From Candidatus Cloacimonetes bacterium ADurb.Bin211 (GTDB lineage: Bacteria > Cloacimonadota > Cloacimonadia > Cloacimonadales > Cloacimonadaceae), in assembly GCA_002070045.1 (NCBI GenBank), contig MWCN01000049.1, positions 1-48,426 of the forward strand: a stretch of DNA of 48,426 nucleotides, written 5' to 3'. The position numbers were made by a program, and so were the translations under genes. Positions 15,138-48,414 of this stretch are shown here, piece by piece; within the stretch, counting starts at the first letter, position 1; every line of letters begins with the position of its first letter. The notes under the pieces are model-generated. The model ran no database searches. It had not been told where the DNA came from and worked only from the letters and a program-made list of their open reading frames with translations.

Positions 15138-15440
15138 TTTCTACCTCATTACCAAATGATACTTTATACCCTTTTTAACACCAGGTATTAAAGTCAAGAA
15201 TTTTATCAGCCATATTAAAGATAAATTATTCTTTAAAGTTTTTAGAATTAAGGAAATAAGGCAAAATAAGGGAAATATAATGCTTGTCATATAATAATTT
15301 CTTATATTATAAATATATTTATATGCATTTAATAATCATTAAACTTTCATACTTATTATTATTTCAATTGTTTCTTCTGATTTATGCATAATTATTAATT
15401 CATCCTAAGATCCCATATGTATTCCGTATTATCTGCACAT

Positions 15441-15491
15441 TATGTCCAGCTTATGTCCAGCTTATGTCCAGCTTATGTCCAGCTTATGTCC
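15441..15491 (+). repeat. tandem repeat, 11-bp unit, 4.6 copies
   Basis: Four perfect copies of TATGTCCAGCT follow one another (15441-15484), then the first seven bases of a fifth. The copies are identical, which suggests recent slippage expansion. Eleven bases is about one helical turn, so any bound protein would see all copies on one DNA face. Confidence 0.95.
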
Positions 15492-46893: not shown

Positions 46894-46944
46894 ATTTATT
46901 ACTAGTATCTGGTTAAATTTATTCCTGATAAAAATCAACTACAC

Positions 46945-47095
46945 AGTAATTCATAACCCAAAAAACTTGATTACTTCACCTTTGACTGATTTTACCACTA
47001 TTATCTCTTATCATACTGCAAAGTAATTCATACCCCAAAAAACTTAATTTCCTTTCCTTTGACTGATTTTACCACTATTATCTCTTATCATACTG
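46945..47095. repeat. direct repeat, two 74-bp copies with 77-bp period
   Basis: Copy 1 is 46945-47018 and copy 2 is 47022-47095. Both begin AGTAATTCATA and end ATCTCTTATCATACTG. The last ~45 bases, from CCTTTGACTGATTTTACC on, are identical, while the first part has scattered differences. Copy 2 starts 28 bases deeper into the gap than any likely terminator of the glycan operon needs, so it is not simply gene tail. Confidence 0.93.
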
Positions 47096-47153
47096 GTATT
47101 AAAGCAATTGAATAATATTACCCTATTTTCTCCTCACCCCCATCTCTTTCCTT

Positions 47154-47196
47154 ACTCTCTCTTGACTCTTTCGTCAACAAAGAGCTAAGAGAGAGT
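47154..47196. other. long hairpin (about 18-bp stem)
   Basis: ACTCTCTCTT (47154-47163) pairs with AAGAGAGAGT (47187-47196), and inside it CTCTTT (47166-47171) pairs with AAAGAG (47179-47184). The two bases between are a G-T wobble and one mismatch. The loop is CGTCAAC. No T-run follows, so it is not a standard terminator. Confidence 0.75.
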
Positions 47197-47409
47197 CAAT
47201 TAAGCGTTTATTACTTTGCATCTCCCACTGTCACAAACAATAATGACATAATATGTCTCTTTTTCTCTCTTTAAAGTACTCAATTCTGTTCCCTATAAAT
47301 AAAAAAGTGTGCTCATTTTATAATGCCTTAATTCCATTAAAAGTCGGAAAAACAGATTTGAGTTAATATTTAAAAAGTCCAGATATTTGAAGTAATCTAG
47401 ATCTGTAAC

Positions 47410-47521
47410 GGTATGTAAAGGTCCCGGTATATAAAGATCCCGGTTTGTAAAGGTCCCGGTATGTAAAGGTCCCGGAATGTAAAGTTCCCGGAATGTAAAG
47501 GTCCCGGAATGCAAAGGTCCC
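47410..47521. repeat. tandem array, 16-bp unit, seven copies
   Basis: Consensus GGTATGTAAAGGTCCC. Copies start at 47410, 47426, 47442, 47458, 47474, 47490 and 47506, with a few substitutions each. The last unit (GGAATGCAAAGGTCCC) runs straight into the first 141-bp element, whose head is the same sequence, so the array looks like amplification of the element's terminus. Confidence 0.95.
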
Positions 47522-47650
47522 CCTTTGCATAATGCGGTAATAGTTTTTCATCTACTAAAGGTATTATTAACGCGGTATAACTGCTTGCATTTAATATTAT
47601 TTCCTAGAAAGCCTCTACGAGGCTTGTGCAGATGGAGACATCTGCACACC
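47509..47650. repeat. structured repeat element, copy 1 (REP-like)
   Basis: About 142 bp, nearly identical to copy 2. It holds three hairpins: ATGCAAAGG/CCTTTGCAT around TCCC (47509-47530); AAGCCTC/GAGGCTT around TAC (47609-47625); and TGTGCAGATG/CATCTGCACA around GAGA (47625-47648). Between them are GCGGTA words (47534-47539 and 47572-47577). It lies close to a REP-associated transposase gene. Confidence 0.85.
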
Positions 47651-47658
47651 GTAAGGGT

Positions 47659-47799
47659 ATGCAAAGGTCCCCCTTTGCATAATGCGGTACTAGTTTTCAT
47701 TTATTCAGGGTATTATTAACGCGGTATAACTTCTTGTACTTAAAATTACGTTCTAGAAAGCCTCTACGAGGCTTGTGCAGATGGGGACATCTGCACACC
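47659..47799. repeat. structured repeat element, copy 2 (REP-like)
   Basis: About 141 bp, starting 8 bases after copy 1. The same three hairpins are kept: 47659-47680, 47758-47774 and 47774-47797. The last has the loop GGGA in place of GAGA, with all ten stem pairs intact. It ends 37 bases before the transposase stop codon. Confidence 0.85.
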
Positions 47800-47835
47800 C
47801 TTTCATCTACACACTGGGAAATAAATACACCTTTT

Positions 47836-48414
47836 TTAACCATTTTTTATATAGAAATACTCCCAATCATCTGGATGTTCTACCAATCCTGCCTTTGCTG
47901 GATTGTAAAAATAATAATTAATCACATTATAGTAATCTTTTTCATTTCGGATGTATCTATCAAAGTAGTTATCTTCCCAGACCTTACCCTTTCTTTTCAA
48001 TCTTTGATTAATTGCTTTTGCGGTATAGGTTTTCAATCGCTTTACGATATCGCTTAAATGATAATACTCTCCTTTTTCATTGATTAAGGGTCTAATTAAA
48101 ATATGGATGTGATTAGGCATAATACAATAACAATGAAGTTCATAAAGCTTATTATCATAAAAACTAAAAGCATATTGTATAATATTTGCTATCTCAGGAT
48201 TAGATAGATTTATACCTTCACATTTAAGCGAGGTAATTAAATTATCCCATTTTAACATATCTTGCATAAATTTGCAGTATTTTTCTTCAGTATAAATTCT
48301 ATTTTCTTTATTCATTTGCCTAAGAAATGCTCTAGCTCTTTCTTCTTTCAACCTCATAGGATAAGGTAAAACAAAAAATAATTTCCAATTTATAGAAATA
48401 ATTTGATCTTTCAT
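47836..48414 (-). CDS. REP-associated tyrosine transposase (Y1/IS200-like, RAYT)
   Basis: A single-strand DNA transposase of the HUH superfamily. The 192-residue reading has the metal motif H102-I-H104 in CIMPNHIHILIRPL. After it come VKRLKTYTAKAINQRLK and WEDNYFDRYIRNEKDYYNVI, ending with YYFYNPAKAGLVEHPDDW, the usual RAYT tail. The catalytic tyrosine is probably within residues 130-155; I cannot fix it. The protein has an extended N-terminal part before the HUH motif. No Shine-Dalgarno is seen before ATG 48414, and the frame stays open to the window edge, so the true start may lie outside. Two copies of a hairpin-rich element lie just downstream of it, as expected for RAYT and its target repeats. 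Confidence 0.88.
   Translation of the reverse strand: MKDQIISINWKLFFVLPYPMRLKEERARAFLRQMNKENRIYTEEKYCKFMQDMLKWDNLITSLKCEGINLSNPEIANIIQYAFSFYDNKLYELHCYCIMPNHIHILIRPLINEKGEYYHLSDIVKRLKTYTAKAINQRLKRKGKVWEDNYFDRYIRNEKDYYNVINYYFYNPAKAGLVEHPDDWEYFYIKNG

Follow-up and report, generated by a model that had tools for sequence, protein, structure and literature searches.

Tandem REPIN-type elements beside a RAYT gene in a Cloacimonadota genome, with a loop core common to one RAYT clade and changing stems

Paired REP hairpins and their associated transposases have been described in several bacterial groups. The REPINs of Pseudomonas fluorescens have a spacing of 71 or 110 bp (PMC3116915). The REPs of the GTAG type form head-to-head heterodimers with conserved structured spacers, some of them with a small stem-loop at one end, and Cloacimonadota are not named in the part of that survey drawn on here (PMC3733652). 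For the group 3 enzymes, mutations are not tolerated at certain positions of the loop (PMC8266576). Searches of open-access papers turned up no description of a REPIN/RAYT system from Cloacimonadota.

The window examined in this paper, a stretch of 48,426 nucleotides from Candidatus Cloacimonetes bacterium ADurb.Bin211, contains a tandem pair of elements with a period of 149 and 90% matches according to TRF. A preliminary description had recognized two near-identical copies with three hairpins each, and this is borne out by TRF, alignment and folding, with fold z-scores of -5.5 and -4.6 relative to dinucleotide shuffles. The start was moved from 47509 to 47506 and the length of 141 bp was revised to 145 and 144 bp.

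Table 1. Features assigned in the window, with coordinates, strand and basis of assignment
Feature	Position	Strand	Description	Basis
REPIN copy 1	47506..47650	+	145 bp, two REPs, feet outward, loop-to-loop 117 nt	
REPIN copy 2	47656..47799	+	144 bp, loop-to-loop 116 nt	
Left REP, copy 1	47506..47530	+	GGAATGCAAAGG-TCCC-CCTTTGCAT, single hairpin	sequence, DNA folding, pattern match
Left REP, copy 2	47656..47680	+	GGTATGCAAAGG-TCCC-CCTTTGCAT	exact pattern match
Right REP hairpin 1, copy 1	47625..47650	-	GGTGTGCAGATG-TCTC-CATCTGCACA on REP strand	sequence
Right REP hairpin 2, copy 1	47609..47625	-	AAGCCTC-GTA-GAGGCTT on REP strand, C-closed GNA triloop	sequence; form kept across genomes
Right double-hairpin REP, copy 2	47759..47799	-	hairpin 1 loop TCCC, then AGCCTC-GTA-GAGGCT	DNA fold
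Half-REP array	47410..47521	+	seven 16-nt units, GGTATGTAAAGGTCCC type	TRF, unit-by-unit parse
RAYT gene	47836..48414	-	192 aa, HUH motif PNHIHIL, Y motif YYFYNP	

As seen in Table 1, the two copies are built alike. The left hairpin common to both reads ATGCAAAGG-TCCC-CCTTTGCAT, and the right end of both, on the other strand, reads TGTGCAGATG-TCYC-CATCTGCACA followed by the small hairpin AGCCTC-GTA-GAGGCT. Left hairpins and reverse-complemented right hairpins share one plan, consisting of a GGNR foot, a perfect stem and a TCCY loop. Since both ends show GG(N)R, a stem and TCYC on their own strands, the structure is a paired one with its feet outward, and each element is, judged by its sequence, a REPIN, namely two inverted REP hairpins plus a spacer. 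The window hairpins have the palindromic form of REPs, both copies contain inverted REPs with outward feet, and pairs about 100 bp apart were found in a further relative, G003. The feet are GGTA, GGAA and GGTG in the window, GGAG and GGAA in G003, and GTAG at other RAYTs of the order. The right REPs of copy 1 and copy 2 were matched by a covariance model at 47610-47651(-) and at 47759-47800(-), the latter with an E-value of 1.6e-12. The elements had previously been thought too long for REPs; each of them comprises two REPs and a spacer, with 116-117 nt from loop to loop compared to the published 71 and 110 bp. The third hairpin does have the 10-bp perfect stem reported for it, with the + strand loop GAGA in copy 1 (47635-47638, the variant loop) and GGGA in copy 2 (47784-47787). 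This "GNRA" loop is the right REP viewed from the opposite strand, where TCCY appears as its complement.

The neighboring gene had been named a RAYT, and this identification holds. It matches Pfam Y1_Tnp (PF01797), scores 88 bits against NCBIfam NF047646 (cut-off 80), and has a structurally solved relative in the E. coli TnpA_REP (PDB 4ER8, E 2.4e-6); the IS200 model gives only 22.9 against a cut-off of 55. From these matches the gene is assigned as a RAYT (REP-associated tyrosine transposase), with the catalytic motifs NHIH and YYFYNP intact in the sequence. It is the sole Y1_Tnp found in its own genome, which is 72% complete. REPs flank it on the 3' side, where 37 bp separate the last REP from the stop codon, and the 5' flank is unseen because the contig stops 12 bp beyond the start codon.

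BLAST with the element identified 16 places in the own genome (G000), 28 in G011 and 11 in G009, the two closest species, while ten other congeners and 28 more distant genomes gave no match. The genome-wide search proposed in the preliminary description was carried out with a covariance model of the loop plus nine free pairs, and further copies do exist: 37 REPs were found in G000, 44 in G009, 37 in G011, 80 in G003, 83 in G020 (like G003, a further relative), 36 in G017, 27 in G010 and 13 in G006, with 0 matches in most other genomes of the order. Several contigs of G011 begin or stop exactly at the right REP, the usual sign of an assembly-breaking repeat. When 741 kb of G009 and 379 kb of G003 were scanned for hairpins, RGGA/TCCY was among the commonest tetraloops and sat on many different stems, with 28 such loops in each scan compared to Markov-shuffle means of 9.6 and 4.0. 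Of 18 REPs in G009, where the DNA is 91% coding, 17 fall outside ORFs. It can be seen that the REP family is dispersed, intergenic and multicopy. Crude ORF calls placed 16 of 29 REPs of G003 within ORFs; these calls were distrusted, being most likely false ORFs over GC-rich clusters. Additionally, a shortened REPIN with most of the spacer missing is repeated three times in tandem, at 95 bp per copy, in contig C79 of G000 (L011 992-1306), and the matching locus in G011 apparently has one copy.

Compensatory changes in the stems, which the preliminary description had proposed to look for, were found in 18 distinct right-type REPs from four genomes, and stems broken without compensation were not the pattern. 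In hairpin 1, 97.5% of cells are paired, a figure inflated by the partial selection of stems for hairpin form, compared to 24-45% in slid controls. There are 50 double-sided changes against 14.2 in shuffles, and both sides change at 7 of the 9 pairs. Only the loop-closing G-C and the A-T two steps below are invariant, and together with the loop these two pairs define the core ANG-TCCY-CNT. The alignment argues that the pairing of the stem is under selection while its letters are free to drift. A further hairpin of the right REP, with a C(GNA)G loop, also covaries; this hairpin was not a criterion when the REPs were picked. Where it occurs with at least 5 pairs, its stems are GCCTC, GCTTC, GCTCC, AAGCC, AGCCC and ACCCC with their complements, 27 of 33 have a GNA or GNNA loop, and the closing pair is C-G in 32 of 33. 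As DNA, C-closed GNA loops have exceptional stability.

The RAYTs of relatives are flanked, mostly on both sides, by inverted hairpin pairs whose loops vary by RAYT clade (TCCY, TCCG, TTCA/TTTA, GCC/GGC and others). The window RAYT clusters with G003a, G003b and G020b (support 95/91), and the core ANG-TCCY-CNT was scored within 700 bp of all 4 RAYTs of this clade, by a rule that was fixed but framed after the covariation alignment had been seen. Outside the clade, the core occurs only at G017b of the sister group and in 0 of the 19 remaining rows. On the RAYT tree the strict core label requires 2 changes compared to a shuffled mean of 4.7, and none of 500 shuffles was as low; the broad NGGA label is weakly clustered, with 43 of 500 shuffles as low. 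Presence of a RAYT of this clade co-occurs with at least 10 REPs (Fisher p 0.0055, uncorrected for kinship). It is the loop, and not the stem, that follows the enzyme. Since relatives share design and loop and differ in stem letters, the loop looks like the mark that the enzyme recognizes on DNA, in agreement with the loop intolerance of group 3 (PMC8266576). The link of REP to RAYT is statistical and not one to one, as G009 and G011 have repeats and no RAYT, the RAYTs of G010 and G006 belong to other clades in spite of their model matches, and G007 has a RAYT of the clade, yet no model match.

The reading that we consider highly probable is that the two elements are non-autonomous REPINs, mobilized in trans as single-stranded DNA by the neighboring RAYT. 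It builds on the observed anatomy, copy number, covariation, intergenic placement and tracking of the RAYT clade by the loop core; cleavage, transfer and the role of the window RAYT as agent would follow by analogy with the family. REPs would fold when their strand is single, for example on the lagging-strand template. The RAYT would recognize the GG(N)R foot and the constant core ANG-TCCY-CNT, and perhaps also the adjoining C(GNA)G hairpin at the right end, so that stem letters could drift provided that pairing holds. The enzyme would bind foot and loops, cut beside the foot, and join the ends elsewhere. The earlier proposal of a new family of RAYT-mobilized structured elements survives in part: a dispersed hairpin family with compensatory changes and a RAYT association is present, while its separateness from REPs and a role as RNA are not upheld.

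Half-REPs precede the left end of copy 1 (Table 1). Each unit consists of foot, 5' stem arm and loop without the 3' arm, and the left REP of copy 1 supplies its own 5' half as the last unit of the window array. Such units precede the full hairpin at thirteen left REPs in G000, G011 and G009 together, and corresponding arrays at right ends are built from the other arm. A half-REP count with one mismatch allowed was mostly noise and was set aside. The arrays may have originated by faulty strand transfer at the loop or by replication slippage at the hairpin. A bolder version, which we regard as doubtful, is that this RAYT lineage reads two loops (TCCY and C-closed GNA) and not the stem, leaving stems free, and that strand transfer at the loop deposits the 16-nt half-REP arrays outside the ends as footprints of activity. 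Upstream of the window array, a 77-bp tandem repeat of two copies occupies 46934-47095.

Among other explanations, the one that survives best, and which is possible but rather unlikely, is that the REPINs are relics, spread by an earlier RAYT since lost or replaced and no longer moved by the window gene. A merely coincidental adjacency of the RAYT was considered in view of the missing gene in G009 and G011, and was kept only in this weaker form, itself weakened by the match of loop and clade. Both species hold dozens of copies, and no RAYT was found in either even at E<=10. The orthologous site in G011 is cut off by a contig end lying within the array, and a RAYT gene there may have escaped assembly. 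In G009 the orthologous interval is complete at 758 bp without REP and without RAYT, and the gene looks lost; loss of the gene while repeats persist is reported for E. coli (PMC3733652). The long branch (0.9) of the window RAYT also fits relics. However, the two copies at the 3' side of the gene are about 90% alike, their loop core is that of the closest RAYT relatives, and the intact catalytic motifs likewise argue for mobilization by the present RAYT. The flanks of eleven locus ends yielded no clean pair of a filled and an empty site for one REPIN, as intergenic DNA was too diverged or contigs were broken in the repeat, and only the RAYT-locus site of G009 is clearly empty.

It is very improbable that the elements serve as structured RNA, either regulatory or as a decoy for an RNA-binding protein, with the loop as a GNRA or GGA protein site. 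The strong predicted RNA folds and the compensatory changes would suit such a role, and the RGGA loops resemble sites of CsrA, a known binder of GGA loops. However, the GNRA tetraloop that had been described as preserved, and taken as a hint of folded RNA, is outnumbered: among 25 right hairpins from three genomes, found by their arms alone, 14 have AGGA and 9 have GNRA. Since most copies carry AGGA and the "GNRA" is TCCY read from the other strand, the RNA argument fails. The left hairpin bears the loop in the opposite sense, and therefore GNRA could not be present at both ends of one and the same transcript. No Rfam family matched the elements; on this result, the loop tally and the opposite strands the GNRA reading was rejected. 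A CsrA sponge or decoy was also rejected, as nothing scored above the CsrA cut-off in 13 congeners of the genus while controls matched. The tracking of RAYT clades by the loop and the stability of the C(GNA)G class as DNA also speak against an RNA role. Ordinary intrinsic terminators or attenuators spread by local duplication are hardly credible, for although the hairpins are intergenic and contig C79 has its tandem 95-bp duplications, there is no T-run after the hairpins, loops are constant on changing stems, pairing is inverted with outward feet, and dispersal extends to dozens of places.

Several other repeats were observed. A separate imperfect palindromic repeat (TCTCTCTTGACTCTTT...AAAGAGCTAAGAGAGAG) at window positions 47140-47225 was located 25 times in G000, 31 times in G011 and 14 times in G009 but not in G003, and represents a further family of dispersed palindromes. 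An 11-bp tandem repeat, TTATGTCCAGC, at 15440-15491 recurs in several REP-bearing intergenic regions (L009, L022, L029, L170), and such repeats often end in CTTATGTCCGAAAGTGGACATAAG, a short hairpin. Contig C73 of G000 (L017 2200-3300) contains a CRISPR-like array with the repeat GTAAGAATTGAATTGACCCGTTTGAGGGGATTGAGAC and two REP hairpins near its end. In contigs C1, C2, C23 and C30 of G003 (L193-L212), a second abundant hairpin family has a TGAA loop (CGGTGGC-TGAA-GCCACCG, 14 of 24 identical), and is possibly the REP of another of the four RAYTs of that genome.

The system is of the same kind as the known REPIN/RAYT systems. With the REPINs of P. fluorescens it shares two inverted REPs with a spacer, intergenic placement, compensatory stem changes and a RAYT link; unlike there, the ends differ in stem, a second hairpin occurs at one end only, the foot is GGNR and not GTAG, and copies number in the tens and not the hundreds (PMC3116915). 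The GTAG heterodimers likewise pair unlike REPs with a structured spacer, but their families are defined by the GTAG motif, whereas here the genomes have a loop core in common and the stems vary freely (PMC3733652). Group 3 TnpA_REP systems (Stenotrophomonas, Marinomonas) resemble this one in a short perfect stem and mutation-intolerant loop positions, as if read by the enzyme; the loop here is TCCY, and the HUH and Y motifs of the relatives are nearer to subclass 2.4 (NHVH, YIxNNP) (PMC8266576). The resemblance to TnpA_REP subclass 2.4, or RAYT group 4, is by motif only (Y---NP and NH[IV]H in the relatives); REPs of that subclass have great length or a double foot and frequently lie inserted within the gene, and the window protein has WE and YYFYNP (PMC6006769). 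IS200/IS605 elements also combine a Y1 HUH transposase with subterminal hairpins in single-stranded DNA, but the gene here is single-copy and below the IS200 cut-off, and the REPs are mutually inverted. What sets the system apart is a right REP with two hairpins, a loop core that is common to several species whatever the stem, a foot of the GGNR type, and the arrays of half-REPs.

How a RAYT chooses its REP, and how a REP changes without loss of its enzyme, is partly known from a few Proteobacterial models. The order examined here provides a natural series, in which several RAYTs accompany wholly different REP stems, and a single loop core holds throughout one RAYT clade while other clades have other cores. 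This series makes recognition of the loop directly testable by swaps of loop and stem.
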